Shown: positions 11,129-63,820 of the stretch, one piece after another
How the letters are laid out: every line of letters starts with the position of its first letter
Position numbering within the stretch: position 1 is the stretch's first letter
Assembly: GCA_017506865.1 (NCBI GenBank)
Contig: JAFCMP010000013.1
Coordinates: 1,116,001-1,180,000, forward strand
DNA length: 64,000 nt
Reading direction: 5' to 3'
Source of the DNA: Tribonema minus
Lineage: Eukaryota > Sar > Xanthophyceae > Tribonematales > Tribonemataceae
Notes under the pieces: generated by a model
Database searches by the model: none
Told to the model about the DNA's origin: nothing
What the model saw: only the letters and a program-made list of their open reading frames with translations
Position numbers and translations under genes: made by a program

Positions 11129-16985
<5,857 letters not shown>

Positions 16986-34884: not shown

Positions 34885-35370
34885 CACTGAGTCAACAACA
34901 GGATGGCTTAGGTGCGCGAGAGGGGGAGGGGAGGAGCAGCAGCGGCGACAGCGATGGCAGTCTCAGGTGATTCAGTGCGTATGGGTGCAAATTATTTAAG
35001 TGCGGGTATCAACTTGTTTCAAGTGCTCGATTTGCGCCCGCTGGGTGTATAGCATGCCTGTTACGACAAACATCGCTGCTACAATTATGACAGCTGCTTG
35101 CACATGATGCTGAAGTTCAGCTACGCACCTCATGCTCCCTAACAGTGGCGCGTGCAGTGTCCACTTCGGTGTCAAAACTGCAAGTTTTGCATGCTGCAAA
35201 AAATTTGCAGAGCTGATCATGATGCATTTGCCGCCTGCCGCTCTGCTGTGCAAGCAGCCAGCATGCCTGCTTGCTATACATATGTTGAAGTTCAACAAGT
35301 TCTGAATTAGCTCCGTCTCTTCATTGCAGTGTGCGCCTTTGCCTTGGCTCCAAACAAATTGTGATTGCAG

Positions 35371-39872: not shown

Positions 39873-41619
39873 TCACTTGAACTTCATGGAGCCCACGGCC
39901 TTCTCGCCGAGCAGCGGCCACTCGCGCTCCAGGGCGTTGTCGTTGCTCACAATCTCCTCGATGCGCAGCTTGACGCGGCCGACCTGCGTATGCGCAGCAG
40001 CAGCGCGCAGCATTGGCGTGGTGGCAGTAGAACCCATCAGAATGCAGTACTTGAAGATTTCGGTAGTTGACGGACGTCTGTACTTCGCACGACGGCCGCA
40101 GCGAGCAACGGCACAACACACACGGTGGCATGAGCGGCTGAACCAGCACACTGACTTGTACAACTTTGATAACTGCAATTTTCGGATGCTTAACATGAAG
40201 AATTCAGCAGGAAACAATTGTGGAAGGAGCCGGAGCGCACCTAGCACCATATGCACAGTCATTCTTCATGAATGACGAAATGCAAGTGTTGTGAACTTGT
40301 ACAAAAAAGAGCACATGTCTGCCAGGCTGGGCTTATGGCAATGTGAACATGGTGCAGGCTGGTGTCTTCGAGTGCGTGCATCAGCTGGCGCAACTCAGAA
40401 GGTACTCTGAACTCTTGCTCTCTTGAAGGGGCGTTAATTTACAGACGCTAACACCAGCCGCAGGTCCTTGACTACACACTTTAAGGTCGTGGCGACCTGT
40501 ACACCTTTTCGCGGTTTCCATGAACAAGGCTGCAGCTTCTTGAGGCGCCAGATTGTCACTAGCTGGCAGTCATCAGGGCCAGACACAACGCCAGGTGATG
40601 GAAAGCACTTGCGGCAAAAGAGCGCTGCCAAACAACAAGCTGGGCGTTGCTGCAGCCCTGCAACAGCGCTCCGCTGTTGTCTCTGTTCAGCGTCATCACG
40701 CCGTAGCTCTGGTGTGCGTTGGCCACCACTGCTTCCATACGGTCTCTGAGCCTTGACGGATATACAGCACCCAGATTTGAAGGCGAACTGTGCAGCCATT
40801 GCCCAGCAATGTTGTAGTGTACGGTGCTGCCTGTGTAGGCATTGCTCAGCGGTGTTGCAGCATGCGGTGCTGCCGCCCCTGTCATCGCACCGTATTCACC
40901 TCACTAGGGTCGAACTAACCGGGCACCTACGCATATGAACTTCACAGATGCAGCAGACGGTGGTATAGCGTGCAGGGACACATGTGAAGTGGCGTGTAAA
41001 GGTAAACAGGTGACGCACCTCGGCGTCGGAGGCCGTCAGGCCGCCCTTCTGCATGACCGCAATCTCCACCTGCGCAGTCTTGGATCCACGAATCTGCAGC
41101 ACAGAGGCACAGAGCGCTGACTGGTGGGTACGCCAGACTGAGCATAGCATTGTTTGTTCATGTCTTTTCTTTTTGTTTTGCCCAGATGTTTGTCGAACCA
41201 CAGATTGGGGATTTGAAGGACAATGACAACTGTGTCAGGTGCGCGCGTGCCTGGCCCCATTAGACGTGGCAATGGCAAACGTGAAGGTGGCTACACGGCG
41301 CGCGCTCGTGCAAGCAGTTTGCAACGCTTACACGCCATCTCTGTCGAGGCACGCTTCACTCCTGAGTATGCTTTCGACAGAAGTACCAGCATACCTCACG
41401 CAGCGCAGCGTATTTCACGCAAATTCACAAGTACGGGGCAAAGCCGCACGCACCATGATCATGGCAATGAAGACTATGCGCATGCTTTTCAAGTTTCAAG
41501 CAGCGCGTCGTTGATTTGGAGCAGCAGCAAGGACGTTGATTCTCTCACCAGCATGTGCACTGCCATCAGCCAGCTCGCCTCTGTGGCCTTCTCCGACATC
41601 TGCGGGGCAGCAGCGGCGT

Positions 41620-41651
<32 letters not shown>

Positions 41652-44600
41652 GCGCCAGCAGCATCAGCAGCAGCGGCACGTTGCCATGGCACACATGTCA
41701 GCTGAATGGTGCCTGTGTCAGCGTGGCCAGTGCTACCATTTGGGGGCCTAAACAATAGCAAAATGGAGTTCGTGAGGAAAGGCGCGATTGTTGCGAAGGC
41801 AGCCCTGACGAGGCCACCCGCCAGCGGACTCAAGCACTCTACGCGTAGCCAGCGTACACTGCAGGTGCGCTGCACCGTCGTTGGACACTGGGGAAACACT
41901 CAGCGCCGGCGAACCCCGCAGCGCACATCACAGAGTCAGGAGCTATGTATGTACGCCGCAATGCAGCTCCGTGCGCATTGGCCTGTGCACACACACCGCC
42001 AGACAACGCCGTTGCATGGCATGCCGCCGCACCGCGCAAAGCGCGGCGGCGCTGGCGTGGGTGTGTCAAGGCAGCTACACGAAGCAGTGAAGTGCAGCGG
42101 GCAATGCGCTGACACCTGCATGGAGGTGAGTGCTTCAGGAAATGGGTGAGCAGAGAGCCTCTCGCCTGGATCTCGCGCTGAGCGATGCCCTCCCTCACAG
42201 TGCTGTACACACTAGAAGTCCAAGAACGATGCACCTTTTCTTTCAAAAAATAAGTAGAACAACACTCAAAACCGATATCGTGAGGTGATCAATTTCGGGT
42301 GCCCCACTCCCTCACCTGCGTCTTGCGCTGCGAGTTGCCCTGCTGCACGATGCAGTACATCTTGGCGGCCTTGACCTTCGACACGGATATGTTCTGTACC
42401 GTCACCATGCCCATGCTGCTGTCACATCAATGACTTGGGTCTGAAACTCAAGTCAAAACAGCAACTTCAAGAGGCAATTAAACTCGGGTGCCCCCCCTCT
42501 CACCTGCGTCTTGCGCTGCGAGTTGCCCTGCTGCACGATGCAGTACATCTTGGCGGCCTTGACTTCGGACACAGAGATGTTCTGTATCGTCAGCACGCCC
42601 ATGCTGCGGTCGCTTGGGTCGCTGAAGGCCATGGGCTCCGCGGGAATGTCATCGCCGCCCAGCGCGCCCAGGGTCACCACAGCGGACACGGCCTGCGCGG
42701 CAGCGAGAAAACGTTTATACGGTAGACAGAAGGTACGGATATACTTGTTCATGGAACGAAGGTAAACCATGTACACGGTCAGCAGTTGGTATAGGTAATA
42801 CGTTATGTACGCATGATGCGGATGCGATGGTCAGCTGTTGCCGCCGAGCGCGCCCGGGGACACGGCCTGCCCGCCGCATCGGCGTATCTCTCAGGGCACA
42901 TGCTACGCGGTGTGTGTGGGTGGCACGGACGCCGCATCGGTGACCACAGCGCAGGCGGCCCACCCGGTAGGCGGTACGTGCACTAAAGGTACACGTCTCG
43001 TAGTACAGTATTGAAAGACGTGGGTGAACCGCACAATAAAATGTGTCGATCACACCGGAGACGGCGCGCTGGGCACACAGGCTGTGCACGTAGCAAGCCC
43101 GCACACGCCATCGCGTGCGGCGCGCATGTGGGGTTAGGGTTAGGGTTAGCCTAACCCTACACAGGCTGTACACGTCGCGAGCCTGCACACCGCATCGTAT
43201 GCTGCCATCATGCGGGCAACGCCGGCGGACACGCGCGTGCCGCTGCTGGCGCTTGCGCTGGGGCAGCAAGTGCTGAGGGGGAGGGGGGGGGGTGAGGGGG
43301 GTCAGTCATTGCGGCATCTGGAGCTCACTCCGCATAAGCGATAAAACCAGTTGCTCACTTTCATTAGTTCACATGGTGTGCGCATCACTGCTCTGCTGCA
43401 AGGCACGCGAGCCAACGCTCTTGCTGGCTTGCGCAATCACCGCTACGTCTCGTGACACTGGCCGCCACTGGGTGATTGGTGCTCACCTTGAGAGCGCCGC
43501 CCAGCTGCTTTGTGGGTATCATCTTGAGGCCCTTGTTGAACATGGATCCCCTGCAGCAGCGCAAGCAACAGAGGGCATTGAGAGCAGGAAGTAGCACTGC
43601 AGCAGAGGCAGAGGGCACCGAAGAGCGACTGCAGGCGCAAAGTGAGCCATATCGAAGCGAAGCATAAGAAACTGCACAGTTCCATAAAAGGAGACAAGGA
43701 GACAACGTCATTGTTCTAAAATGCGAAGATACTCAGCACGGCGTGCTCTCCGCATATTCTTTCGAAGTATTGACCCGAATGCTGTTGTGTGTGTCACAGG
43801 CATGCGTGCTCGGCAGGACTCGCTGATGCCGCAGGGTTGAATTGGCGCAATAACAATGTCACCAATCACTACTGGCGCGCTTGCCTCGCAGCGGTGGGCT
43901 ACACGAGACTTCAAACTATAGCTTGAAGTGGCCATTCCAGTAGCATTGGGGCGCTGACGGCGTGCCTGTGGCCTACGTTTACCGGGGTGGCGCCCCGCCA
44001 CAGTTGACAGCATGAGCATGTCGTAACTTCTGTGCTAATTATTCTGCACAGCACATTGTGTTGCACAGTATCAGCTCCATGTGCGTCAATTAGCTCACAA
44101 AGATACGCAGATCGCCCGTGCTGTCTATTGACTCTCATGTGATGATTGTGTGATAGTTGGGAGTGATGACGAACTATCCAACCATGCTCATGCGTTCCTC
44201 ATTTGCCAGAAGCAGCTCATTTACACGGTCTATTGGCTCTCACACGAAAGCGTCGCTTCACCAGAAGCATATGCTTGTAAATACTTTGAAGTACTTTGAC
44301 GTATGATTGCCGACATACGTCCAGCGGAAACAGCTGTCCCCCCGGGGCTATCATCCCTCGTGCGTGTATCCTGCAGCACTGTACGCTATGAAGTACTTCG
44401 GAATACTACTGTTAAAAAACAAAAATATATATCATAGACATTAAGCTGTTTAACAGCGTACTTCCGTTGCTCCTCCACCGGAAGCACCCCACACGTGGTG
44501 CCTATTGGCCATCTCGTGTAGCGCGCACATCTACTGAGAACGTAGTACTGCATAAGTATAGTCCAGTCAATACGCACTTGCGCGGCTCCTTCTCCAGGAA

Positions 44601-47600
44601 CACCTTTCCCGTACGTAGAAAGTAGTACCGTAAGAGTGCAGTGTTTTCGGCTGCTAAATACTTAAAGAGTAGTACTGCAGGAGTACAGTGTACTTTCAAC
44701 ACTTGAAGTACGCACTTGCGCTGCTCAATCGCCGGCAGCAGCTTCCCCATACTTCGAGAGTAGTACTGCAGGATTACAGTGTTTACAGCTGCTACATACG
44801 ACAGTACGGCAAGAGTACAGTGTACTGTCAATACTTGAAGTACGCACTTGCGCTGCTCCTTCGCGGCAGCTCGTTTATGCTGCTTATCAGCTCTCAATGC
44901 CACGCATACATCTACTGAGAGCGTAGTACTGCATGAGACCGTAGTATTGCACAAGTACAGTCCGTGGTACCGCATGAGACCGTAGTATCGCACAAGTACA
45001 GTCCATTCAGTACGCACTTGCGCTGCTCCTTCGCCAACAGCAGCTTCAGCATGCTCAGAGAGTACTGTAGTACTGCAGGAGAACAGTGAATTCCGCTGCT
45101 AAGTACATACTTAGAGAGCAGTACTGCAAGAGTACAGTGTAATTTCAATACTTGAAGTACGCACTTGCGCTGCTCCTTCGCCGGCAGCAGCTTCCCCATG
45201 CTGTCGGCGCCCATGTTTGCGAGGTCAAAGTCGGGCGTCTCGTCGAGCATCGGCACCTCCTCACTGGCCACGAGCTCATCCGTGAGCTCCTCAGGCGACT
45301 GGTCAAAGACCACGTCGGGAAGGTCCTCCTTCTCCGTGCCCGGCGCCGCCTGAGCAATGCCACGAGCAGCGTAAGGGGTATGTATAAGTTTAAATTCTAA
45401 GTGATGCGGTTTTATGATAGGGCGCAGCACGTTGGGGAGGTCCCCCTTCTCCGTGCCCGGCGCCGCCTGAGCGATGCCACGAGCAGCGTAAGGGGTAGGT
45501 GTAAGTTTCGGGGGACGAGGGTTGGATTCTCCTTCCCTGGCGCCGCCTGAGCAAAGCCACGAGCAGCATAAGGGGCAAGGACGTATAAGTGTAGGCTCGG
45601 GATGACAAGGGTTGAGGTGGCAGGGGGGACCACATCGGGGTCCTCCTAATCCGTGCCCGGCGCCGCCTGAGCGGTGCCACGCGCAGCGCAAGGGGTAGGT
45701 ATAAGTGTAGACTCGGGTGACAAGGGTCGGGTGACAGGGGGCAGCACGTCGAGAAGGTCCTCTTTCTCCGTGCCCGGCGCCGCCTGAGCGGTGCCACGAG
45801 CAGCGTGAGGGGTAGGTATAAGTTTAGGGTGACGAGTATTGGGTTCTCCTTCTCGAGCGCCGCCTGAGCGGTGCCACGAGCAGCGTAAGCGCTAGGTATA
45901 AGTTTAGGCTCGGGGTGACGAGATTAGGTGATAAGGGGCAGCACGTCGGGGAGGTCCTCCTTCTCCGTGCCCGGACGCCTGAGCGGTGCCACGAGCGATC
46001 GGCAGCGTGAAGGCGTAGTCATGGCACCAGGGCTTGGGCATTCAAGGATACGGTGACACGGGCATCAAGACATGCATACACTTCTGTATACCGCAGAGTA
46101 GTAATCAAGTTGCAGAGCAGACAGAAAACAACCCGTTTACTCACTGCCGGACAGTATTCTGAGCGCCGTTGCGAACCATGGTGCATCAATACATGCATAC
46201 ACTTCTGTACACCGCAGAGTAACATTACAAGTTGCTGAACAGACAGAAAACCTATACATATCGTGCATCAAAGAGTAGGACAGGACTCTGAGCGCTGCTG
46301 CCTCACCTGCAGCGGCACGTGCCAGAATAACACAAAATACTGACCAGACAGAAAATTTAAAACGTGTATCAAAAAGTAGGACAGGACTCTGAGCGCTGCT
46401 GCCTCACCTGCAGCGGCACGTACTCCAGCTTGAGCAGCAGGCTGCCGGTGGGGGTGCTCGTGAGCGGCACGTTGAGCGCCGTGATCTTGAAGTCCAGCAG
46501 CGCGGACAGCGGCACCTCGCACCTGCCCAAGTGGTCGTCGTTGTCGGCGAGATCCTCGTCGTACACATCGAACGTCACCACCTGCGCGGCGGGGGCACCG
46601 GAAGCACGGAGAGAGAGTGTGTGAATTGAAGTTTTGAGTTGAAGTCGTGCACTTGGCTGAGTTGGGGAGGTTCTCGTGGTACTGCGCGGCGGGGGCACCA
46701 GAACCACAACAAGAAGCGACCATGAGTTGAAGTTGTTTTGAGTTGAAGTTATGCGCTCGGGCTGAGCTGGCGTACACGTCGAACCACCTGCGCGGCGGGG
46801 GCACCGGAACCACGACGAGAAGCGACCATGAGTTGAAGTTTTGGGTTGGAGTTGTGCGCTCGGCTGAGTTGGGGGATAGGCCAGGCACCTCTCGTTCGGC
46901 GCCCTTGCTGGACGCGCTGCTTGCGCTGAGGCAGCACTGCAAAGAGAACACGACGGCAACTTGAACACTCAACTTGGATGCCGCGCCTCGGTCGCCGGTT
47001 TTTGTGCAACGCGCATGCACGAGCGCACAAGGCCCGGGTGCAAGCACCGACAGGGCACGCTGTCTCGAGGCACCAACGCCACGGGCTGAAACTAATCTTT
47101 GTATTTTAAAAGAAATCTACCCCTTAGAATTTCATCTGCTTTACCACAAAGTTGAAGAACTCATGAACCGGCCAGCGGCGGTGCTCGAGTGACATGCGCT
47201 GCGCGTCGCGAGATGCGACTGCAATATCATAGGGTACGCATCATTGGAAAAAAAAACGTGTCCGTGCGCGATGCTGTCTCTGAGCAGGGCCTCGTCGTGG
47301 ACGAACATGTCGATCTTCTGGGTGTGACGCACCTGTGCAGCCCTGTTGTGAATGAGCAGTGTCAAACTCTCAGGTGTGACTCTCGTCTGCGAGGCCTTGT
47401 CGTTGACGAGGATGTCAAACTTCTGAGTGTGACTCACCTACGAGGATGTCAAACTTCCAGGTGTGACTCACCTGCGAGGCCTTGTCGTGGACGAGGATGT
47501 CGAACTTCTCGCCCCAGCGCGGGTTGAGGTTGGAGTTGATGACCGACGTCTGCGGGCGCAGAAATGCACGAAGGCAGAGACCACGACGGCACGTTACGGC

Positions 47601-50600
47601 TTGAACTTGTGTTTGATACATGTCTGTAAGGATGGAACATAAATTTTCTGGATGGAACATACATTTTCTAGAAGGTGGAAGGTGCACCTGTGAAGTATAG
47701 GCGTGCAATGCTGGCCAAAAGTATGGGAGTAGGTTTACTGACCCGAGCAGATCATGTGACAGATGTAGTTGGCACTTCGCAAAAATGCGTGAAGGACATT
47801 TTAAGTGCAAGCAGCGCAGCAAGCAGTTGCCCTGGACACATCACGAAGCCTTCGCAAACAACAGCACCATGTTGTACCAGAAGGGCCACTCGTGCAGCCA
47901 GGCCTTGAGCAAAACCTCAACATTGTCAGCGGCGTAAAGGCCACGAAAGCCCCAGATGTGACCGCATTGATTCAGTGCCAGGGTAAACGTGCAGGCACAT
48001 AAACCCCAGATTTGAACACATTGATGCAGTGCCAGGGTAAACGTGCAGGCGTGATTTGCGGGCGCTGCTGCTGCCATTTTTCTAATTACCGTAGAAGGGC
48101 TACTCGCCCAGCCAGGGCTCAGGCAAAAGTTGAACCCTGTCAGAGGTTGAGCTACTTGAACGCATCGATTTCAGTAGGTTTCAAGGGAATGTGCAGGCAC
48201 AATTGCAGACGCTGTTGAGCACTGCTGATGTTTGTCAAAGGTACAAGTCACCTTGTTCTCCTCCTTCAGAGGCTTCTTCCAGCCACTGAAATGATCAGTG
48301 AAATCCTAGATCTGAACGCATTGATGCAGTGCTAGGGTAAAAGTGCAAATGCGATTGCAGGCTGCTGCTGTTTTCTTGTTACCTTGTTCTCCTCCTCCCC
48401 CAGTTTGATGACCACGTAGGGGTCGCTCTTGCCCATGAGGTCCGCCTTGCGCAGGTTGTCGGCGCCGACCTGCGTGCAGCAACGCTCAGCAGTTCAGCAC
48501 AAACAAGCATCTTCTGTCCGCTACTCTGCCATGATGACGCATGTACGCAGGTGGGCTACCTGATAAAACAGGCAAGATTTAACTGGCAGGACCGGTGCAG
48601 GCACCGCAACGCACGGAGAACAAGAGGACTGTTGTCTTTCCTTTAAGGTACGTATGCCCATTCCCTCTTGTAGTGTAGGAAAAGAAGGTACATGGAGGAA
48701 TATGCACTGAAGCAGATAAGCCAGTTGTCAGCGCCAGCATGCAGAACACAGCAGCAGAGACATACAATGAGGGGAGACTTGTTTTTGTGTTCAATGCAGA
48801 ATTATCCGTTGCCCAAAGCGATGTGCAGGACCTTCGAACAATCCCGGGCGCACGGGCAATAGCGCCGACGGGGCACAGACTGAGCACTGCGTAATCACCT
48901 TGTGGCAACTGCGGCGCAGTGCAGTGCCTAAACTCTTAACCTTAGCCCTTACCCTAGCCGTAACTGTAGCAGTGGAGCGCGTCACCGAGCGCCGCGTCGT
49001 GCCTGATGCGGGGCAGACACTCGCAACAACGCTCAGCGCATGGTCCAGCACACTGCTCAGGGCCACAGGCGCCGCGCTTCTCTGTTGTAGCTGAGCCCGC
49101 GTGGCACACTGCGTGGCATGACAAGCCTCGTTAGGGTACATGGCGCCTTCTTCAAAACCTAGTTTCAACTTCCAAGACTCTTGTTCCTGCGACTCATCAC
49201 TTCCACTTGCAGTGCGCTGGCGGGTACGCGCGCCAGACCAACTTCAACCCCTATTTCCAACTTGCTCGTCCACATTTCTTTGAAAAACAGTTTTACGATT
49301 ACCTCTCAAAAGCAGAAAGTAGCGGTAATTAATAGGGGACAACTGTGTCTTGATCAAAACTGCTCTTTTTTAACAATTGATTGGTACTGTAACTCTAAGA
49401 ATACTGCTTTACTATCAAACCTTCAACATTTGACTCACCACTTCAAGTTGAAGTACGCCGGTGCGCGCAGGCGCCGCGAGGCCCGCGAGGTCCTTGGGCT
49501 CGCTGATCAACTTCAACCCCTATTTTCAACCTCCACAACTCACATTCCTTTGACTGATAAGATTGAAATACATGCAACTCGCCACTTCAAGTTGAAGTAC
49601 GCCGGTGGGCGCGGGCGCCGCGAGGCCCGCTAGGTCCTTGGGCTCGATGATCAACTTCAACCCCTATTTTTAACCTCCACACCCCACATTCCTTCAAACT
49701 TATAAGATTGAAGGACATGCAACTCACCACTTCAAGTTGAAGTACGCCGGTGGGCGCGGGCGCCGCAAGGCCCGCCAGGTCCTTGGGCTCGATGATCGGT
49801 ATGACCATCTTTTGGGGGTACAGAACGGGGACAATGTCTTGCAGCACCATCTTGGTGACGGCGGACACGGCCGACGCAATGTTCAACTCCGCGGGGCCCA
49901 GCGACATCAGGTCCACGGCTCCGACCTGCGCCGTTGCGATTTTGGAATGGACGAATCGACTCTCAGGGGTGTTTTGCTGGGGCTGCCGGAGCCGCAGGCA
50001 GTGCATTGCCAAAGGCACAAGCGGTACATGTAGTCTAGATGAATCGGTGCAGTCAAAGTTCAACAATGTTCAACTTGGCGGGGCCAAGCGACATCAAGTC
50101 CACGGCTCCGACCTGCGCCGTCGCGATGGAAAAATGGCAGAGGGGTCTCAGGTGTGTGTTTGCTGGGGCGGGCAGTGCGTTGCCAACGGCACAGGCGGTA
50201 CATGGACATGAATTGGTGCAGTGAAAATTCAGCTATGTGCAACTCGGCATGCCGCTGCGACATCACATCCGCAGCCCCGACCTCTGCCGTCGCGACAAAA
50301 CAGCGGACCAGTACAGCGACTTACAAGTTCCTTCATTATGGCATGCCAGAATCATAAGAACCATCGGTTTTGGTGACCAGCTTATTTCAAGCCTGACGAG
50401 ATGGCACCTTAACCCTAGGGCACGTGGGCGTAAACGCACCTTGAAGGTGAAGTCGACGTACGGGCGCTCCATGAAGCAGACGGACAGGTTGCCGAAGCAG
50501 GGCACCTGGGGGGGGGGAAGGCGCGGGGGAAGGCGTGCAAGGGGAAGGGGGGGTTAATACTGTCGGCAGCGCGCGCGTCAAAGCAAGAGGAGCGCAAGTG

Positions 50601-52296: not shown

Positions 52297-52367
<71 letters not shown>

Positions 52368-55300
52368 TTGAGCGGCAGTTTCAAGCCAGCAGCAGTCCAG
52401 CAGCAGCAGCGACGACAGCAGTACCGCCGCTGGCAGCAGCAGCAGCGATCAGCAGCAGCAGTGCTCATCAGCAGCGAGCACTTGAAAGCAGCAGCAGTAG
52501 TGATATGCAGCGGCATCAGCGCTCAGCAGCAGTCATCAGCAGCAGCAGCGACAGCAGCAGCAGCAGCATCGGCATCAGCACCAGCAGCATCAGCAGCGGC
52601 GGCAGCAGCAGCATATGGCCATGGCATGCATGTCAGCTGCAGCAGCAGCAGCAGGGGGCAATGGGTGCGGGGCGTGCATGCTTCAATCAGAAGTACCGTG
52701 CTTGCTGAAGTTGAAAGGCACCATACTCCTGCAGTAAACTTTAACGCTGCGGCATCTCACCGCGGCTTGTACTCGGCAAGCGCTTGGCTGACGACCTCAC
52801 TTCGCGCACCAGCACCGGTTGCTGTACCTACAGTATGTTGGCACCCCCACTCCTATCTGAGTACCATTTTGAAATCTCATACTTCGAAGTACTTCAAATG
52901 ATTTTTATCATTATCAAAGTAATTTCTATTTGGAAATCTCACCAACACGAGCAACATGAAATTTGGCGGAATGCATTCACATTCCATCTCACCGCGGGCT
53001 TGTACTCCGCGAGCATCGGGTCGACCATCTCCCTGACCATGGCGTCCGTGGCGCCCGACGCGTGCGGCCACATGTGCTGCAGCAGCTTGTTGAGCCACTC
53101 CACGCGCTCCGTCTCGCTGTCGGAGAACCACTTGGGCAGCTCGCGCGCGATTAGCGCCTTGATCTGAGCGATGGGGGAGGGGAGGTGAGGGGCGGTGAGG
53201 GGGGGGGAGGGGGGGAAGAGGGGGGGATCGGAAGAGGCAACAGATATATATATATTTTTTAGCATGAAGTAACGGTTGATTACAATGTCATCAACGCGCT
53301 GTCAGAGAACCATGTGGGCGGCTCGCGCGCGATGAGTGCCTTGATCTGAGCGATGGGGGTGGGGGGAGGGGGTAAGGGGGGGAGGGGAGGGGGGGGGGGG
53401 GGGGGTAGAACGATCGATGAGTTCTCTGTTGGTGAGCACGAAGTCGTGGTGTATGAAGTGGGGGTCAATTGTATCACAAAAAGCGCCAACAGACATCATG
53501 CGGGATCACAGCATGCACGAAGCGCTCACGGACTAACCAAAACCTACGCCAGTGGCCAAGCTGCCCTTGTGCTTCCCGTGCGCGCTCATGGACTGATGAG
53601 GATCCAGGCCATACAGAAGCATGCACGTCCACTCACAAATGAATTGTGGATCACGTCGGTGATCATGCCTGTATCACACCCTAACTGCACAGTCATGGAT
53701 GGATCGTGAATCACGCCTGTGGCCAGGCCAACGTCACCTGTCCTCCTCGCGTACATCTTCAAATCAAATTATGGATCGCGTGCAGTACACGCACGACAAT
53801 TGAACACTCACGGATGAATTGTGAATCTCGCCAGTCGTCAATCCCACATGCCCCTCGTGCACATGCACGAATCGAATCATGCAGCACGCGTATTACACAA
53901 TGCATGTACACTCACGGATGAATCAGGAATCTCGCCGGTGGTCCTCCTTGCGCACATGCATAAATGAAATCATGAACAACACTTATTCACACAATGTATA
54001 ATCACTCACGGATGAATCGTGAATCTCGCCGGTGGTCAGGCCGACCTCCGCCTTGTCCTTCTCGTGCTGCATGTAGCCGACGATCATGGCCGCGAGCGGC
54101 ACCGCCCACATGTAGTCCATCCCATACGCAGACACCATGTAGGGCAGCGCGATCAAGGCTGCATACCACATGGGGTTGAAGCTCCATGGCTCGCTGTGGA
54201 ATAGGAGAAGGAGGAGGGGGGGGGGGGGGATCAGCAAGCGATTGAAGTGTATGGGGAGGGGGGGGGGTGCGGTAGGGCCGCGCGATCAGGGCCGCATACC
54301 ACATGGGGTTCAAGCTCCACGGCTCGCTGTGGGGGGAGGGGGGAGGGGGGGGTCAGTAAGCAATTGGTGTGTGTGGGGTGGAGGTGCAGTAGGGCGAAAG
54401 ATCAGGGCCGCATACCACGGGGTGGAAGCTCCACAGCTCACAGGGCGCGGGGGGGGGGGAGTGTCTGTAAGCATCAGTGTGGGGGGGGGGGGGGAAGTGC
54501 AGTAGGGCGCTAGTGGTAATGTAAGGGGGTGGAGGGTGCGGTAGGGCGCTAGTGGTGAAGAATCACGGGCACGTACCACATGGGGTTGAAGCTCCACGGC
54601 TCGCTGCCAAAGGGAATGCATCAGGGAGGGGGGAAGGGGGGGGGCGGGGGGGTCAGTAGGCCAACGGTGTGTGTGGGGGGGGCAGGTGCAGTGGGGTGCT
54701 AGTGGTGAAGAATTAGGGCGGCATACCACATGGGGGTTGAAGCTCCATGGCTCGCTGTGGAGGAGGGGGGGGGGGAGGTCAGTAAGCAATTCGTGTATGG
54801 GGGGGGGGGGGAGGGAGGAGGTTCAGTAGAGTGCTACTGTAGTGGTGAGGAATTGAGACCTCATGAAATTGAAGCTCATAGCTCGCTGCCAATGGCAACG
54901 CATCAGGGAGGGGGGGGCGGGGATGGGGGGGGTCAGTAGGCCACCGGTGTCTGGGGGGAGGTGCGGTAGGGCGCTAGTGGTGAAGAATCAGGGCCGTGCA
55001 CCACATGGGGTTGAAGCTCCATGGCTCACTGTGGACGGAGGGGACGAGGGGGGTAGGGGGGTAAGTAGGCCACTGGCGGTGGGTGGGCGGGGGTTCAGTC
55101 GCAAGCTAGACACCCGGGTACAGTTACACGCGCGCAGTGTTACCCTGTCCATATCATCATTGTCGTTAAATTGCGTGAGCACAATATGGAATTCGCCGCG
55201 AGGCGGCGGCGCTCACCTCTCGCTGCGGAACTTGCGCAGCGCAGCGATGGCGTTGTTCCTCTCCGCAACGTACTTCGTAACGAAGACTAGATAGTTCAAG

Positions 55301-58300
55301 AAGTACGTGCCCTCGTGGTGTGCCATTCAAGCTTCATTGTTTAAAGCACATGTACTTGAAGTTGACGCCAGCGCTCACCTCTCCTTGCGAACTTTGCGTA
55401 ACGCGGCGATGGCGTTGTTCCTCTCCACGACCTTCGGGTCTTCAACTATGGGGGGTGGCTCCTTCATGCCGGCCGCAATGAGGCGCAGCCGCTTGGTCGT
55501 GTCACGTTCTTCCAACTGTGAACACGGCGAGTGTTAGGGTAGAATTTAATGAAGTTAGAGGCGAGTCTGAAGCTCATTTTGTTTGGCGCTGGATTGCACC
55601 CTGGTGCCAGATGAGGCGCAGCCAACTGTGAACACAGCGAGTGTTGCAGTAGAACTAGGTCATGAAGTTGAAAAAAACGTGATGAAGCTGCCATGCATAA
55701 CGGCCCGGTGACAGATGAAGCGCAGCCGCTGGGTGGCGTAGCGCGTCTCCAGCCGCAGCGGCGGCGCGATGCAGCGGAAAGCGCAATTTGAACCTGAAGA
55801 AAGAAGTGTGAATGTGATACCTGGACTGCGATCCTCTAGCTGCGGTGCGGCGCGCAAATAGCGGCAGATGACAACGTGGCATGTTTGCAGGACAAATTCG
55901 TTCTGCAGCAGACTCAGAGCTGTGGTCGATGGCGCACTACTGCTGAAGGTGAAGTAGGTCGGGTATAAACGCAGTTGCCACCGCTTCGCATACGCCCTGG
56001 CGCCATGACACGCTGTTGCAATGGCAGTACTCTGGCGCAAGGCAACAACACAACGCTGCATGTGCACGGCCATTTGCCACATAACATAAACCCTTGATTA
56101 ACCACAAAAGTTAACCCTGACACTAACCCAACCTCTGTCTTGGCCAGCCAGCATCTGCTTGACATGCAGCGACACGGATTGTGCACAGGCAGGAATTTGC
56201 CACGTAACCCTAGCACTGAACCCCACCTTCAACTCTAGATGAAATCCAAACCCTAACCCTAACCCCTACCTCCTTCTTCGCTCTATGTTTGCTGCACAGG
56301 AATTTGCCACGTCACCCTAGCCCTTACCTTCGCACCCTATTTCTAGCCCGAAACCCAACCTAACCCTAACTCTGACCCTGACCCTAATACTAACCCTAAC
56401 CCTAACCGTACCTCCTTCTTGGCCAGTGCCTCCTTGACCCACAGTGGCTCGTCGTCCACGACGCCCGCCAGTATGAACTTGACGGCCAGCAGGATGTGCT
56501 CCATGCCCAGAGCCAGCAGGGCCCGCACCTCAAGCCTGCACACGCACGCAGCGCGCAGCGTCGTTGGCTGCTGTGAACTGACTAGGGCTACAGCGCTATG
56601 TCGTTGGCCACTATGACCTGATTGCTGTAAGGAGTGAGGGTGAGGTTACAGTAAGGCAAAGGGTTAGGGTTGCTCCATGCCCAGGGCCAGCACGGTCCGC
56701 ACCTCGAGCCTGCGCATGCATGCAGTGCGCAGTGTTGTTGCTGCTGTAGATCGGCTAGAATTATGGCGCCATGTCGTTGGCCACTATGACCTAGGCAATT
56801 GCAGCAAGGTTATTGCACCAAGGGGCAACAAATTATATTACAGTAATGGCACAAGAATTAGAGTGCTCCATGCCCAGGGCCAGCAGGGCCCGCACCTCCA
56901 GCCTGCGCACGCGACGTACGCGCAATGCCACGGCTCAGCTGCCGCGCTGTGACAGTTTCAAACGAAATGCAACGCCCGCTCGGACATCACAGACGTGAGC
57001 GTGGAAGGGCAGATGTCCGCCGACGCTCGCATGAACACCGGTATCCCCGTGTTGCGCGCAGCATGCAACGCCTACTTTAAAGGCTGATGTACAGCGCAGT
57101 AATAACAAAGAAGCGTACGACATAACGGGTCCAGCCTCCGGCTGTGTCACTAGTCAGCGAGAGAGAGAGAGAGCGTGTCAGCGTCTGCACCATATGATGC
57201 ATCTTGTCAGCATGCCGACGCAGCCTCTGGCAACCATCAGAGCAGACGCCTATGAGCACATGCGCGTACGCGTACGTCCCCCCTTTTGCCCTTTTGACAT
57301 TCGGGTACAGGTGCGCACGCGGGTGGGGGGGGGGGGGGGGGGGGGCAGTGCTCACCTGTCGAGCGCGCTGTGGAACTCTTCGGGGAGGAAGTGGTCCATG
57401 GAGCGGCCGAGGAAGACCATCAGGCAGCTGCAGCAGAAAAACCAGCAGCGCGCACGTTATGCGATGTTTTCTTGGTCATGGCAATGGACGCAGGTCGCAA
57501 GCCTTGTTGCTGATGGTGGTGGAGCGGCGCATGCCGTTCGGCGGCACGCCACGCATGGCCACTGTAGATGGTGGCTGAGGGCGAGTATGTTCTACTTCAT
57601 GTTGAACTGATACTTACTACTCTGAGTGGGCAGAGTTGAGCGTGCACGCGTGACGCAACTACACAATAGAGGATGATAATGAGCGTGGTAAGTAATTTGT
57701 ACTGCGCTGCACTTCTGTACTGCCACTGTACTGCATCCTTTCTGCCAGGCATCAAGCCCTTCAGTAGTGCACAGATCACCCGAGCTGTGTTACACCCGCA
57801 AATTGACAACCAGACAAAACGCGCTTTCAAAGCCGCCGCTGCCGAGGACACACCTCAGCAGTGCGCGCCATAACCCAAACCCTAATCATAAGGCTAGCCC
57901 TCATCCTCACCCTCACCCTAGCCGGAGGCATGCGCGGTGTCACACAAAACCCCAGGTGGTTCAGCCAAATTGAAGCACCATGCAAACTTGAGCTTGAGCT
58001 TCTGGCGACGACCGCGTCACTTACCAGTTGGTGAACGTGGCAAAGAACCCCATGGCCTCCAGGCACGTGATCCAGGTGCCGATGGAGCTGGCGACGACGG
58101 GGGTCGGACGCCGGGCCTGCGAACGCCAGCGGAGGAATGCGTAAAATTGCAGCTGATTCTCTGTGTTGGGCTGCCGGCTGGAGCTGGCCTACCGAACACG
58201 TGAGACCTGTCCATACTGAACACCCATGCCTCGAACGCTAAGAAGTTTGCACACAGATGTCTTTTTGCCTACTGTGGTTTTAGTGGCACTGTTTGACTTG

Positions 58301-61300
58301 TGGCCGATGACTGCAGCAGCGGCGACCACGGTTATTGGTGGAAGGCAGTTGCGGCTAACCATCCCTTGTCACCTGGAGCTCTACGATCTTTTGATTCGTT
58401 TTTCATTACTTCAAAAGCATGTTCTGTTGTGTGCACGTACTTGCCGCTAAAGTACTCCAGTACTAGCGCATTGACAGAAGAACTGGCCTTTGGACGCCGG
58501 GCGGAGGGGTGCGTATAAGTGTTACTTGCTTGAGTTGCACGTACTTGATACCGCTGAGGTACTACTACCACCACGCTTGACAGAAGAACTGGCCTGTTGA
58601 CGCCGTCGTAGGGTAAGCGTAAAATGACTGTTTTCTTCTTCTTTTAAAATCTTGTTTCTTCTAAACACGAAGCTGATACTGCTGGGGCGCTGCTACTTTC
58701 ACTCTCTCGACAGATTAACTGCTGCTTTACTTGTGCACGAGATACATGCGCACGCCATGGGAGCTTATAGGCTTGGACAAAGGCTTGGACTGAGGATTGA
58801 ACCAAGGAATACTTTCGCCCAAGCAGCGCGCGTTTGCCCTGCTGCCCGGGGCAGTGAGAATTGACTGGGAGCTCCGCGCGTCTTGTTATGTCTGCAAGCG
58901 TGTCAGGGTTCGTGCCAGTTGTTTTAGAACTTGGTCTGACACAAAATACATGCATGGCTACAACGAGTACTTTCCCCCATATATTTCGAGAATTAAAAAA
59001 GAATAGAAAATGGTAGCAAAAAGAAAATAGCAAAAGCCAAGGTATTTTCCATTACTGTCCAAAATGAAACAAGTGGCTGAAACGAGTTGAATCATAGTTA
59101 TTTTCCCCACTCGATTCTGTTTCGAGAATTGAAAAAATAGAAACTGGTAGCCAAACAAAAGAGAATGATTAGCACAAGAAGTTCTAGTATTAGAAAGTCT
59201 CGCGTGCCTCCAGATGGCTCAAAGTAATCACGCACATGGCGTTGAATGGCCAGTGCAGCGCCACGTCGTGTCAACATGTCACCTTACCTCGCGGCAGCGG
59301 CGTGCGCCCCTCATGCAAGCACGGCGTATCCACAGCAGGCGAGGCGCGCACATAACGATTCCGTACGGCAGCATCGCGAGGCCGGCAGCGCGCGGTGCGG
59401 AGCCGCTGATGCGCGCACATGACACCAAGCCTGATCCCAACCCTATTCCTAACCCCCAAGTATTTCTTCTGGCCGGCCACAAAAAAACAGAGACGGGTCA
59501 GAGCCGTCAGATGTTGGCAAGGGGCACGTTTATACAGCACTAAAGCATGATCTGAAGTCGTTCACTGACCTGCTTGAGGGCGTGCAGGTCGATCTTGTAC
59601 TCGGCCACGTTGTTGACGTAGGCAAACAGGGGGGCCAGGGGGAACGCCACCGCGAACATGGTGCTGAAGCCGAACTGCAAGAGGGAGCGAGTGTGGTATG
59701 GCAGGGCGTCATTCAGTACCACGCTCGCCTGATGCAGTCGTGCCTGACTTAGAGTTGATAAGATGAGGGCAACTCATATCTTCAATTGGCCTTACTTCAA
59801 GTGTGCTACCCTACAGATTATCTCGTCCAAGACCTCCATGCACATGATGACAGCACATTTGAGAGCTTCACTACACGTTTTGCATTTCTGGAGCGCTGCA
59901 GATGTATTTCTGGAGCAACTCTGAAACTACCAGAGGGCGAGTGGAGTGGCTGCATGGCGCGGTCCAGGCGCTCATCAAAAGTGTTGAGCCGTGACTTCAT
60001 CCCTGGACTTCATTCCGAGGCGTGTACCACCGCCACAGGTACTCATCGGAGATGACAAACCGGTCAGCGACGAGCTGCACCTCATACCTACTTGCCTGCA
60101 GAACCGCACATCACAAAATGTTTTTTGCACATGTGCGCACGCACCTGAATGGCGAGCTCCAGGTAGATAACCAACTGGTCAGCCATCAGTTGATGTGGGC
60201 TCACATTATTGTCCATGTAGAAGAAGGGCTAGAGAACAGCAGTCCTGACACTCACCCTGACCCTAAACTCTGACCGTCGCCCTACTACCAGATCATCCGA
60301 CGCACCTGAATGGCGAGCTCGAGGTACTCGTCCGAAATCACAAACTGGTCCGCGACGAGCTGTCCCTCGAAGTCTGCCAGCGACAGAACCTCGTCGTTCA
60401 GCACGATGGGGCCCAGCTGCCCCGGCGCAGCGGCGGCAGAGGTGGCGACGGCGGTGCTGCTGCCGCTGGCGCCGCGCGCTGCGGCGGACACGGGGGCGCG
60501 TGCAGTGTTGGGGGGCAGGGGGGGGGGGGCTTTAGGCATTGATGCTGCTGCAGGGTCGGCCGCATGCGAGTGCAAACAACAGCGTGTGTGTGAGGGGGGG
60601 GGGCGGAGGTACCTGTGGTCATTCGGGAAGGGGGGGGTGAGGGGGGCAACTTTGGTCATTCATGATGCACGTGTGCGTAGATGCTGCCGGCACTGTTGAC
60701 ACTGGAGCGCGGCAGTGCGTTGGGAACTTGGGGTGGAGCCGTCGCAGCTGAGGGCTAGGGTTCAGACTAGGGTTCCGGTCCAGTATGAAGTGATGGGGCT
60801 GCCGCAGCGCGTCAACAATCGCAGATGCGCAGATGGAGCTTGCAGCGCTGTGCAGGTGCGAACGCATGGCGATGATCACCGGGTGCTTGACCAAGGCGCG
60901 GGAGTGACCCTAAACCCATCTTTTGAAAGGTAGCGCTGGCGCTGATTTGAGAGGCGCACTGAGGGTAAGAGTTAGAGTACATGCGTGCATAGAGCATTGC
61001 TAGATGCCGCCCTCAGCATCATACCTCCGACACCATTTATAGGCAACCAGCACTTCACAACTTAATATTTCAATTACTGAAGTATAAACATCTTCCCTCA
61101 TTTCCTTAGTTACATACCATCATCTGTGTCCAGAGGCGGCGCAATGGCCTGCTGAGCATCGCTGGGCGCTGCCGCCTCCATCATACCCCTGAAACTACTT
61201 GTAGATGACCAGCACTTCACAACCGAACACGTCAATTGCAGTACTACGAAGTAAAAACATTTTCCCTTGTCTCCGTACATAGCCACTTGAAGTACATACC

Positions 61301-63820
61301 ATCGTCGGTGTCCAGAGGCGGCGCGATGGGCCGCTGAGCATCGCTGGATGCTGCTTGAACACTGACTCTTCATTTCACCAAAAGACAACTCATCAACTTT
61401 TTTGCTCATGTTGAATTATTGAGCCTGCTCTTGATAGCTACATACCGTTGTCTGAAGGCGGCTTGATGGCATGCTGAGCATCATCGCTGTGTGTGCCGCG
61501 CTCACCAAACCCCCTGACAGTATGTACTTACTACCAGTGCTGCGCAACTCTACACTTGTGTGAAACGTTTTCCTAGTCTCCATTCATAGCTACATACCAT
61601 CATCCGTGTCCGGAGGTGGCGCGATGGCCCGCTGAGCATCGCTGGGCGCTGCCGCCGCAGCCTGCGCGGCCTTGAGCTCCTTCTGCGCGCGGTACTCTGC
61701 GTACTTCTGCCGCAGCAGCGGCAGCCCCACCTCGAACGCGTTGCCCGACAGCTGCGGGGGCAAGTTCGCACACACAGCACACGTCAATCGTCAGCGCCAC
61801 GTTGACCGACAACTGCAAGGGCCAATTTGCGAAGCGCACGTCAATTATGTGCGCGATATGGATCTGCGAACAGCAAGAGGTGTGCACACGGCGGAGAGCA
61901 AGAGGTGTGCTCACGGCGGTGTGGCGAAGGCGCGCTTCTGCGGCGCGTAGTGAGGACAGGCAGGCGTGCGCACGTCAAACCCTAACCCTTACATTAACCC
62001 CAAAACGCTAACACGAGAAGTCCCCACAGCCCGCGCATTGTGATTGTGATGCGAGTCATTGAACAGCACAGAGACGCTGCGGTGCCACCAAGGGAAGGGA
62101 AGAGGCTGTGGAAATGCCGCTTGACTCGGCAAACAGAAGACAGGTGTGCACCCAGCCAAATGTTGGATGCATTGCGCGGCAGCCGTCGGGAAGCAGTTTG
62201 CAGCCGATACACGATGGTGCGATGCAATGGCCATGCTCAACAGCGCGTACGGCAAGGGTGCAAGACCTGAAGTCACGGCGCGCTTGCCTGCGTGGTGACG
62301 CACGGCGAGAACAGCACGCCGCTGAAAGCCGCGGCACGTCGCGCTTTCTATGCTAGCCTGCCAGCTAGTACGCTGCTGCAGCTACGTGCCCGCACTTGCT
62401 GGCCGATGCCAGTAGCAGATAATGGAAACAAACAACGCTCACCTGATCGTAGCTTGATTCAAGCAAACTTCGATGTTTTGTAATTGATTGACAAAATTGT
62501 GATGACGCACGTGCTGCTTCCCCCCCCTCGACTCTCCGCAAAACGTACACATTCCCAAGGCCTGCTGTCCGTACGGCGCGATAGCGAAATAAACAAAGTC
62601 GCGGCGCGCTTGCCTTGTGTCTGCTCGGGTCCCTTGGTCGTCCATCTCTGCACTGTGGTGAGCTATATACTCTTGTACGGCAAGCGTGCAAAAGCTATTA
62701 ATGTTTCTAAGTCACGACTGGCTTGCCTGCTTGGTGACGCACAGCAAGAACAGCATGCTGCTGAGGCACCGCAGGTTGCACGCAGCGGCACTTTGCACGG
62801 GCAGTGAGCATCATCGGCTAATCCTAGGGTTACTTCACACATGGGGTCGGGGTTGGCTCACCTAAGAGTAGGGTTAGCATGCCCTAATTACAGACATATA
62901 TGGGGATTGAGCACTGACCTGCTTGGTGACGCACAGCGAGAACAGCATGCCGCTGAGGCGCGGCATGTCGCGCAGGAAGAAGCCGATGTAGAAGAGCGCG
63001 CAAAAAAAGTTGACAAACTGGAACGCGAACAGCTGCGCGGCGCGCGGAACAGGGAACAGAACGTGAAGTTTTTGCGGAGAGAGTCAGGGAAGCAGCAGCG
63101 TAGTGCCACCACTTGTTGTCTGGCACAGGCCAACACTTGAGCGCGGCACATGCAACACGGGTAATTGGCTGTGATCGTAAACTTGTGCTTGGTAGGATAC
63201 TGAAGTAGCTACTGGAAGCTTGCGGCCCTCGCGGGCTCTGCGCTTTGCAAGCGCTCGCGAGTTCACAAGACCGCATTGACGCGCTCGAGGCTTTGTCAAC
63301 TGTGTCTGCCTCAGGTCGCAAACAGATCGCATACCTCCACACTCATCTTCAACTTCAGTGCAGGCTGGAGGCCCTGTGCCAACAGCGTCAACTGTCACCG
63401 CCTCAGATTGGAAACAGATTGCGTACTTCAATGTTCAACTTCAACTCAAATGCGATGCTGAGCACACTCGCCTTGAGCGTGAGCGCCTTCTGCTTCTGGC
63501 GCTCGGTGATGTGCCCCTCGTAGTCGTTGAGCGTCAACTATGACCGCCTCAGATTGGAAACGGATTGCATAACTTCAACATCAATTTCAAATGCAATACA
63601 GATCAGGAAACAGGTTGCACAACTTCAAAGTTAACTTCAACTTCAAGCAGGACAAGCACTCGCCTTGAGCGTGAGCGCGTTCTGCTTCTGGCGCTCGGTG
63701 ATGTGCCCCTCGTAATCGTTGAGCCGGTTCGCCAGCTTGCCGTACGCCTGCGAGCACGCGATCGGCACGAGCGAATACGCGCCCACCGGCAGGAACCGCA
63801 GGATGCTGCCGGCGCCGTAC
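39873..63820 (-). CDS. Anoctamin-SMP-C2 fusion protein (TMEM16 plus extended synaptotagmin), partial at its 5' end
   Basis: Twenty-four exons (minus strand): 63820-63664, 63032-62919, 61751-61598, 60478-60306, 59674-59570, 58116-58025, 57427-57356, 56535-56412, 55515-55379, 54193-54010, 53163-52993, 52261-52151, 51493-51365, 50505-50440, 49925-49728, 48469-48383, 47549-47472, 46581-46408, 45349-45165, 43550-43487, 42692-42504, 41599-41549, 41093-41019, 39983-39873. Every junction is in phase, with no stop across about 1,000 residues. Exons 1-9 encode the C-terminal half of a TMEM16 scramblase/channel, exon 10 a membrane hairpin, exons 11-15 an SMP lipid-transfer domain, exons 15-18 a Ca2+-type C2, exons 19-21 an acidic linker, and exons 21-24 a second C2. 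Exon 1 uses a GC donor. Expected site: ER membrane at plasma-membrane contacts, as for yeast Ist2 and tricalbins. The N-terminal TMEM16 half lies beyond the window. The last codons read AAG TGA or could be a donor AA|GTGAGT. Confidence 0.9.
41605..41680 (+). repeat. CAG trinucleotide tract in a fusion-gene intron
   Basis: Interrupted CAG/GCA tract. On the transcript it is a CUG-rich tract just upstream of the acceptor of the 17-codon microexon. Confidence 0.9.
42316..42424 (-). repeat. Duplicate of the C2 exon 42692-42504
   Basis: A ~105-base copy of the 3' part of the exon with its donor (ACGCAG|GTGAGG), preceded by a possible acceptor (gatgtgacag). It stays open and encodes MGMVTVQNISVSKVKAAKMY and then the same CIVQQGN end. 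Changes are few and partly conservative, so it could serve as an alternative exon or be a recent border copy. Confidence 0.8.
43130..43162 (+). repeat. Interstitial telomere-like repeat
   Basis: Three TTAGGG-type units meeting CCTAACCCTA in opposite orientation, inside the intron between exons 43550-43487 and 42692-42504. Confidence 0.85.
44458..45060 (-). repeat. Donor-side ladder below exon 45349-45165
   Basis: Five degenerate copies of the exon end (plus-strand signature gtacgcacttgcgctgctcc and variants) at about 45010, 44840, 44705, 44570 and 44458. Each has a copy of the AA|GTGCGT-type donor or a decayed version. Spacing is 110-170 bases. Confidence 0.8.
45430..46010 (-). repeat. Acceptor-side ladder above exon 45349-45165
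   Basis: Six copies of the exon start and acceptor (plus-strand signature gtgcccggcgccgcctgagc followed by a gccacgagcagcg block) at about 45440, 45533, 45644, 45762, 45850 and 45960. Spacing is 85-120 bases. Together with the donor-side ladder this exon is flanked by border copies on both sides. Confidence 0.85.
46665..46805 (-). repeat. Acceptor-side copies above exon 46581-46408
   Basis: Two copies (46665-46700 and 46765-46805) of the cctgcgcggcgggggcacc acceptor region, the second with the neighbouring acacgtcgaacc exon bases. A donor-side copy of the same exon end lies at 46285-46325. Confidence 0.7.
47290..47455 (-). repeat. Donor-side copies below exon 47549-47472
   Basis: Three degenerate copies of the KFDILVHDKASQ codons at about 47436-47455, 47380-47425 and 47290-47330, some with the donor. 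Confidence 0.75.
49430..49645 (-). repeat. Donor-side copies below exon 49925-49728
   Basis: Two clear copies (49436-49500 and 49580-49645) of the exon end, with cacttcaagttgaagtacgc, a GCG-rich stretch and gaggtccttgggctcg. A weaker one may start near 49200. The palindrome-like cttcaagttgaag is coding here (VLQLEV). Confidence 0.85.
50070..50300 (-). repeat. Acceptor-side copies above exon 49925-49728
   Basis: Two copies (50070-50125 and 50230-50300) of the exon start and acceptor (plus-strand signature gacatcaggtccacggctcc then gacctgcgccgt), separated by ~160 bases. Confidence 0.85.
50996..51330 (-). repeat. Donor-side ladder with telomere-like motifs below exon 51493-51365
   Basis: About five copies of the exon end (plus-strand signature gcagcgctcaccagtggcacc) at about 51297, 51249, 51190, 51105 and 50996. 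Copies are interleaved with gctagggttagggttagg tracts, i.e. TTAGGG-type arrays of one to three units. Confidence 0.8.
52265..52640 (+). repeat. CAG/TCA trinucleotide tract in a fusion-gene intron
   Basis: A pure CAG run at about 52314-52365, preceded by a short TCA run, followed by ~270 bases of interrupted CAG repeats. On the transcript it is a CUG-rich tract ending beside the acceptor of exon 52261-52151. Confidence 0.9.
53290..53355 (-). repeat. Acceptor-side copy above SMP exon 53163-52993
   Basis: Copy of the exon start (plus-strand gcgcgatgagtgccttgatctgagcgatgggg) including the acceptor. A donor-side copy of the same exon end lies at 52740-52790. Confidence 0.85.
53582..53945 (-). repeat. 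Donor-side ladder below the membrane-hairpin exon
   Basis: Copies of the exon end (plus-strand signature cactcacggatgaatcgtga then tctcgccggtggtc) at about 53910, 53808, 53694, 53632 and 53582, progressively more diverged. The true border is at 54010. Confidence 0.8.
54281..55032 (-). repeat. Acceptor-side ladder above the membrane-hairpin exon
   Basis: Six copies of the first ~35 bases of the exon at 54193-54010 plus its acceptor (plus-strand signature accacatggggttgaagctcc then tggctcgctgtgg) at about 54281, 54403, 54575, 54718, 54864 and 54985. G-rich runs on the plus strand (C-rich on the transcript) separate the copies. Spacing is 115-170 bases. Confidence 0.9.
55225..55290 (-). repeat. 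Donor-side copy below exon 55515-55379
   Basis: Copy of the exon end with ERNNAIAALRKFRSE codons and the donor AG|GTGAGC. Acceptor-side copies of the same exon lie at about 55595-55640 and 55700-55760. Confidence 0.8.
56240..56411 (-). repeat. Telomere-like repeats directly after a donor site
   Basis: The intron that follows exon 56535-56412 begins GTACGGTTAGGGTTAGGG and continues with degenerate TTAGGG units; further units lie near 56250-56265. Confidence 0.85.
56680..56910 (-). repeat. Two acceptor-side copies above exon 56535-56412
   Basis: Copies at 56680-56720 and 56865-56910 of the exon start (LEVRALLALGME codons) with their cgcag acceptors; spacing ~185 bases. Confidence 0.88.
60030..60190 (-). 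repeat. Two donor-side copies below exon 60478-60306
   Basis: Copies at 60140-60190 (ends ELAIQ codons plus GTGCGT donor) and 60030-60095 (QLVADRFVISDEYL codons, donor lost). Confidence 0.85.
61111..61489 (-). repeat. Donor-side ladder below exon 61751-61598
   Basis: Three copies of the exon end (plus-strand signature cataccatcatccgtgtcc, gaggtggcgcgatgg, gctgagcatcgctgg) at 61441-61489, 61293-61348 and 61111-61179. The donor GTATGT is retained in two and altered to GGTATG in the third. Spacing is 150-190 bases. Confidence 0.88.
62280..62775 (-). repeat. Donor-side copies below exon 63032-62919
   Basis: Two copies (62716-62775 and 62280-62345) of the exon end (CVTKQ codons). In both, the donor has become GC (CAG|GCAAGC) while the true exon uses GTCAGT. 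Confidence 0.82.
63470..63540 (-). repeat. Donor-side copy below exon 63820-63664, with GC donor
   Basis: Near-identical copy of the last ~55 bases of the exon (YEGHITERQKQ ... ALTLK) followed by the same GC donor (AAG|GCGAGT). The frame is kept. Confidence 0.88.

Follow-up and report, generated by a model that had tools for sequence, protein, structure and literature searches.

One gene of the alga Tribonema minus joins an anoctamin domain to an SMP-C2 module

A 64,000-nucleotide stretch of the Tribonema minus genome (positions 1,116,001 to 1,180,000 of contig JAFCMP010000013.1), here called the window, carries on its minus strand a gene whose single open frame encodes, in this order, an anoctamin (TMEM16) domain, a putative hydrophobic hairpin, an SMP domain and two C2 domains. 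This frame runs through 25 exons from 63820 down to 39243, 24 of them within 63820-39877 and followed by a terminal exon 25 (Table 1). When exons 1-24 were spliced in silico they gave 998 stop-free codons; the alternative frames held 11 and 22 stops. All acceptors of these exons were AG and the donors were GT, except for GC after exon 1. A sequence-only reading of this DNA had placed 24 in-phase minus-strand exons in 39873..63820; the exons and their phase stood, but the range did not, as exon 24 ends at 39877 and the gene runs both to 39243 and past 63820, off the window. Because the 5' end of the gene lies beyond the window, the anoctamin domain is represented by its last two thirds only (profile 159-459 of 460). 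The residues of exon 25 and its TGA stop also form the C-terminus of two database proteins, P0001 and P0002; a short exon near 39630, considered as the gene end, was rejected since both proteins show exon 25 at 39282-39243. Intron 1 (63663-63033) is a GC-AG intron with the donor GCGAGT, the sole such case among the 24 introns.

Transcription of the fused frame was seen in P0001, a Trinity-named open reading frame from EukProt, which agreed with the spliced model in 875 of 882 residues across 117-998, apart from a single insertion of two residues, and continued into exon 25. It crossed 22 exon junctions, from 3/4 to 24/25 and including 9/10 between the two halves, without interruption. Exons 1-2 are absent from P0001, and where it begins, in the part aligned to exon 3, it diverges from the model (14/21 of its mismatches). 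Given the 99% identity, its source should be Tribonema or a very close alga. The second protein, P0002, is an NCBI gene model of Tribonema minus (Xanthophyceae) that matched the window at 945 of 950 aligned residues; it is already fused, yet named for a chloride-channel domain only, and the sequence was thus public before. P0001 and P0002 represent one gene. P0002 carries five in-frame insertions resembling copies visible in the introns of the window, which are probably annotation errors because P0001 has none of them. The proposal that a single chain spans 55515-54010 was therefore upheld, as the continuity of P0001 over exons 9/10 contradicts transcripts that end before the join and restart after it.

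Within the introns of this gene (39283-63663), 14 of 24 repeated within them an exon edge together with its splice site, matching at 28 or more of 36 bases; in a control made for donor edges only, in which these were sought in other introns, the maxima were 19-23. Intron 9, which lies at the join, held copies of both of its edges (donor 28/36, acceptor 34/36), and its donor-edge control reached at most 20/36 in other introns. Intron 9 thus resembles the other introns of the gene more than an intergenic spacer. The edge copies are perhaps a trace of intron growth in the T. minus genome. They also act as a gene-prediction trap there, P0002 appearing to read five of them as coding and P0001 none. 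Two imperfect CAG/CTG tracts, at 52278-52613 and 41607-41678, are likewise intronic and lie shortly ahead of the exon 12 and exon 22 acceptors.

The domains were assigned with Pfam. Anoctamin matched residues 5-328 at 2e-63 (215.3 bits against a cut-off of 28), SMP_LBD matched residues 454-605 at 1e-15 (58.1 bits against a cut-off of 27; profile 1-150 of 180), and C2 matched two stretches at 6.1e-29 (100.7 bits, above its curated cut-off), the best being 656-745. The order given beforehand, namely TMEM16 C-terminal half, hairpin, SMP, Ca2+-type C2, acidic linker and second C2, was retained; the anoctamin part amounts to the C-terminal two thirds, and the second C2 is degenerate. TMEM16 proteins are expected to have ten transmembrane helices and an N-terminal cytosolic domain. 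The complete Anoctamin profile (1 to 456-460) was covered by the full-length relatives P0004-P0008 and P0035, the window copy being cut in mid-domain. Exon 10 encodes two short hydrophobic stretches between anoctamin and SMP, which we read as a short hairpin. A 19-residue hydrophobicity scan (threshold 1.4) missed this hairpin and found it in all four relatives tried (P0004, P0005, P0008, P0020), but it is no clean test for one, because a stretch of the SMP domain was also flagged in all five chains. In the structure model of P0020 two helices, 437-453 and 457-483, lie at the hairpin, in blocks with a predicted local distance difference test score (pLDDT) of about 45-70.

Residues for Ca2+ binding were compared in an alignment (A1) of ten rows, counted over the rows with letters at each position. 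Five acidic positions in transmembrane helices (TM) 6 to 8, which, helped by structure-sequence alignments, we take to be the TMEM16 Ca2+ site, were kept in every such row: the TM6 Glu in 8/8, the TM7 acidic pair in 9/9 (P0008 and P0027 have Asp as its first member), and both TM8 residues, Glu and Asp, in 9/9. The Asn at the TM6 site of TMEM16A was replaced by Gly in all 8 rows. In the first C2, the Asp pair of loop 1 and the first two Asp of loop 3 were kept in 9/9.

Three protein searches, each scoring about 8000 candidates, turned up at least ten proteins in which the three domains occur together (P0001-P0008, P0020 and P0035). When these ten and P0027 were scanned, 10 of the 11 showed Anoctamin, SMP_LBD and C2 above the curated cut-offs, a count that confirms the listing and is not a rate, because the ten had been picked by precomputed domains. 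The fused relatives were about 33-47% identical to the Tribonema chain and could be aligned from the tail across hairpin and SMP into C2. T. minus itself has another, diverged fused gene, P0003, which is 36-38% identical to the Tribonema chain and whose gene model, judged by eye, also contains repeat-like insertions. Mutual identity among P0005, P0006, P0007 and P0035 was 75-85%. P0027, labelled as a partial protein of Ectocarpus sp., is probably a cut-off fused member, since it is 71-73% identical to P0008 and stops just before the hairpin. Among the matches listed from the profile search (120 of 161, in which the known fused members P0008 and P0020 do not appear), five fused proteins stood on top, four of them in the query profile, followed by ANO8 at 324 bits against more than 2000. 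Scans of viral and prokaryote contigs by sequence pattern yielded no confirmed relative. We concluded that the anoctamin-SMP-C2 fusion is real, as had been claimed, that it is transcribed as one gene, and that it is conserved in relatives.

The two halves were also placed in trees. The anoctamin halves of the fused proteins formed one clade with 100/100 support against ten rows from the same hit list; as these rows were mostly named ANO8 and included no ANO10 or fungal proteins, this tree is uninformative on other anoctamins. For the SMP halves, the best tree did not show the fused proteins as one clade (two changes), and they formed one in 18% of bootstrap trees, or in 5% when P0011, P0013, P0014, P0015 and P0024 were left out. 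Constraining the SMP halves to one clade was not rejected, however (approximately unbiased test, p-AU 0.404). In trees of fused proteins only, made without P0003 and P0027, the two halves agreed on the strong branches, that is, on the pair of the window protein and P0020 and on the group of P0005, P0006, P0007 and P0035, with a weak disagreement over the placement of P0008. The best-fitting history is one ancient fusion that was then passed on, though these trees do not prove it.

By sequence, the best solved match of the anoctamin half was human TMEM16K/anoctamin-10, an endoplasmic reticulum (ER) lipid scramblase (5oc9, 6r7x; 1.2e-35), well above TMEM16A, and the best for the SMP-C2 half was E-Syt2 (2.3e-44). 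TMEM16K was also the first anoctamin row in both fold searches, where it was tied with nhTMEM16 and TMEM16A; the fold alignment to the C2A-C2B structure 4npk took in P0020 residues 704-1039, with 252 residues aligned, in a comparison that barely tested parts outside 1-386 and 705-828 (VIA table). TMEM16K itself has neither SMP nor C2, whereas in the fusion protein a putative hairpin, an SMP and two C2 domains come after the last helix. Extended synaptotagmin-2 (4p42), the tricalbins and the plant SYTs resemble it in the order SMP-C2-C2, preceded in the fusion by the putative hairpin, and in a domain-wise fold match. In the E-Syt/tricalbin class, however, the hairpin is the sole membrane anchor and lies near the N-terminus, and here an anoctamin comes first; because the putative hairpin follows the anoctamin domain, we do not file the fusion as an E-Syt despite the E-Syt architecture of its second half. 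Yeast Ist2-Osh6 resembles the fusion in pairing a TMEM16-like ER scramblase with a lipid-transfer protein at ER-plasma membrane contacts, but there two proteins are linked via a disordered tail and the transfer partner is an exchanger of the ORP family, not an SMP protein. Animal anoctamin-8, an ER-plasma membrane tether, supplied the first non-fused rows of the profile search, at 324 bits where the fused members, most of them in the profile, exceeded 2000; among the matches listed, nearly all of these proteins showed the anoctamin domain alone.

We propose, with a probability of roughly 0.6, that this one gene encodes a scramblase gated by Ca2+ and anchored in the ER, joined covalently to an SMP tether that transfers lipid, so that two lipid machines would work in series. 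That Ca2+-gated scrambling would be coupled to lipid transfer at a contact site had also been suggested by the sequence-only reading. After the last anoctamin helix and a short cytosolic tail the chain would re-enter the membrane as a hairpin, and would then continue in the cytosol as the SMP lipid carrier, the Ca2+-type C2, a flexible acidic linker and the second C2. The C2 domains would reach and hold a second membrane, most simply the plasma membrane; the SMP domain would ferry glycerolipids over the gap; the scramblase would balance the ER leaflets, refilling or draining the cytosolic leaflet on which the SMP domain draws; and Ca2+ would gate both ends simultaneously. TMEM16 proteins form homodimers, as do SMP domains, and because of this two chains could form one complete unit. 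Whether the protein is an old ochrophyte invention of this kind, with TMEM16 and SMP dimers formed by one and the same pair of chains and with Ca2+-gated leaflet balancing and transfer coupled both stoichiometrically and kinetically, we regard as an even bet.

Such cooperation is directly supported only in trans, by phosphatidylserine transfer by Osh6 out of proteoliposomes, which, according to a passage of PMC12617493, was sustained by Ist2 scrambling. Passages of a review from the same group (PMC13286939) call this cooperation unproven in cells, report that Osh6/7 are little affected when most of the Ist2 scramblase domain is taken away, and state that a one-to-one exchanger is not expected to cause leaflet imbalance. 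These points weigh against our proposal, as do, for scrambling in particular, the higher sequence score of TMEM16A than of the fungal scramblases and, on sequence and fold scores, the failure of resemblance to separate scramblase from channel here. The exchanger objection would not apply to the fusion protein, because SMP carriers are not known as one-to-one exchangers; to our knowledge SMP domains, unlike the Osh exchangers, have no obligatory back-exchange.

The same scores bear on another reading, which accepts the fusion but takes the anoctamin half for a Ca2+-gated channel or a simple anchor and regards the protein as chiefly a tether. Channel and scramblase structures fit the model equally well in the fold search, TMEM16A outscores the fungal scramblases, and the first non-fused rows among the matches listed are proteins of the tether ANO8. 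Ist2-type homologs, too, are described as ER-plasma membrane tethers in a passage of PMC7387695. The best sequence match is nevertheless an ER scramblase, TMEM16K, well above TMEM16A, and the Ca2+-site residues, which a mere anchor could do without, are kept; we consider this reading rather unlikely. Scramblase and transfer domain might instead be coupled as we propose but sit where the ER meets the plastid envelope or lipid droplets. Ochrophyte plastids are enclosed by ER-derived membranes. Passages of PMC7139823 and PMC6290495 describe T. minus as an oleaginous alga, and PMC7139823 reports its transformation. On the other hand, E-Syts, plant SYTs and tricalbins, to which the second half is related, are described as ER-plasma membrane tethers (a passage of PMC7387695), and either of these other locations seems improbable to us.

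That neighbouring anoctamin and E-Syt/plant-SYT-like genes were merged by a gene predictor, or by a rare read-through transcript, is scarcely credible. Met residues at the hairpin start would allow exon 10 to begin an SMP protein anchored by its own N-terminus, and the join intron is 1185 bases long; but exons 9 and 10 are in phase, P0001 is continuous through the join, relatives of about 33-47% identity have the same join, and intron 9 has copies of both splice edges in a gene where 14 of 24 introns have one or more. A mis-assembly at the join was rejected on P0001, on the same join in relatives and on the splice-edge copies in intron 9, and so, on these grounds, was the null model of a separate SMP gene with its start codon inside exon 10.

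Table 1. Exons of the anoctamin-SMP-C2 gene and the intron at the join, in window positions
Feature	Position	Strand	Evidence and remarks
Exon 1, anoctamin domain, mid part	63664..63820	-	Splicing, Pfam Anoctamin; GC-AG intron next; outside P0001/P0002 coverage; P0020 similar by eye
Exon 2, anoctamin domain, FVNFFCALFYIGFF helix	62919..63032	-	Splicing, Pfam; covered by P0002, not by P0001
Exon 3, anoctamin TM6 with Ca2+-site Glu (GNAFE)	61598..61751	-	Splicing, Pfam, alignment; P0001 matches later part only
Exon 4, anoctamin TM6-TM7 loop and DEYLE Ca2+-site motif	60306..60478	-	Splicing, Pfam, alignment, P0001
Exon 5, anoctamin TM7-TM8, NNVAEYKID Ca2+-site motif	59570..59674	-	Splicing, Pfam, alignment, P0001
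Exon 6, anoctamin	58025..58116	-	Splicing, Pfam, P0001
Exon 7, anoctamin	57356..57427	-	Splicing, Pfam, P0001
Exon 8, anoctamin last TM helix (MEHILLAVKFILAG)	56412..56535	-	Splicing, Pfam, P0001
Exon 9, anoctamin cytosolic tail, runs into join	55379..55515	-	Splicing; joined to exon 10 in P0001
Intron 9, at join	54194..55378	-	Copies of exon 9 donor edge (28/36) and exon 10 acceptor edge (34/36)
Exon 10, putative hydrophobic hairpin (WYAALIALPYMVSAYGMDYMWAVPLAAMIVGYM)	54010..54193	-	Splicing, two short hydrophobic stretches; helix pair in P0020 model
Exon 11, SMP domain start (ERVEWLNKLLQHMWPH)	52993..53163	-	Splicing, Pfam, E-Syt2 alignment
Exon 12, SMP	52151..52261	-	Splicing, Pfam, E-Syt2 alignment
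Exon 13, SMP	51365..51493	-	Splicing, Pfam, E-Syt2 alignment
Exon 14, SMP	50440..50505	-	Splicing, Pfam, E-Syt2 alignment
Exon 15, SMP end and first C2 start	49728..49925	-	Splicing, Pfam, E-Syt2 alignment
Exon 16, first C2, loop 1 with two Asp (KADLMGKSDP)	48383..48469	-	Splicing, Pfam, alignment
Exon 17, first C2	47472..47549	-	Splicing, Pfam
Exon 18, first C2, loop 3 (VYDEDLADNDDHLG)	46408..46581	-	Splicing, Pfam, alignment
Exon 19, acidic linker	45165..45349	-	Splicing; corresponding P0020 stretch pLDDT <50
Exon 20, linker	43487..43550	-	Splicing, P0001
Exon 21, linker and second C2 start	42504..42692	-	Splicing, P0001
Exon 22, second C2	41549..41599	-	Splicing, P0001
Exon 23, second C2	41019..41093	-	Splicing, P0001
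Exon 24, second C2	39877..39983	-	Splicing, P0001
Exon 25, final 13 residues (KAVWTPAAIPAQD; exon 24 supplies part of the first codon), then TGA stop	39243..39282	-	Same C-terminus in P0001 and P0002

Elsewhere in the window, an FNIP-repeat protein is encoded at 31435-33303 on the minus strand (Pfam 7.1e-31), and frames at 26994-28754 (minus), 2581-4062 (plus) and 8511-9767 (plus) are similar to it by eye only. On the plus strand there are also an ankyrin-repeat frame at 33494-34996 (Ank_4, 1.8e-15) and a frame at 15232-15948 with a partial triosephosphate isomerase (TIM, 2.7e-17; profile 133-193 of 245).

No description of a TMEM16-SMP fusion was found among the matches listed from the open-access literature, a scope outside which most subscription papers and preprints fall; the earlier remark that this architecture was not known to have been described agrees with that outcome. 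The novelty is the single chain, both halves coming from known families whose members occur elsewhere as separate proteins. The finding bears on the open question of whether lipid-transfer proteins require a scramblase partner, and the case for leaflet imbalance, and with it for a scramblase, is strongest for the SMP class, because as far as we know it has no obligatory back-exchange. A fusion kept between proteins of only about 33-47% identity is strong circumstantial evidence that both activities belong together. Were the even-odds reading of a coupled two-dimer machine true, nature would have supplied in one piece the partnership of scramblase and transfer protein that has been argued for ATG2 and for Ist2-Osh6. 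The fusion makes a suspected partnership of scramblase and carrier open to a single-protein test, in which one half is point-mutated and the activity of the other is read.
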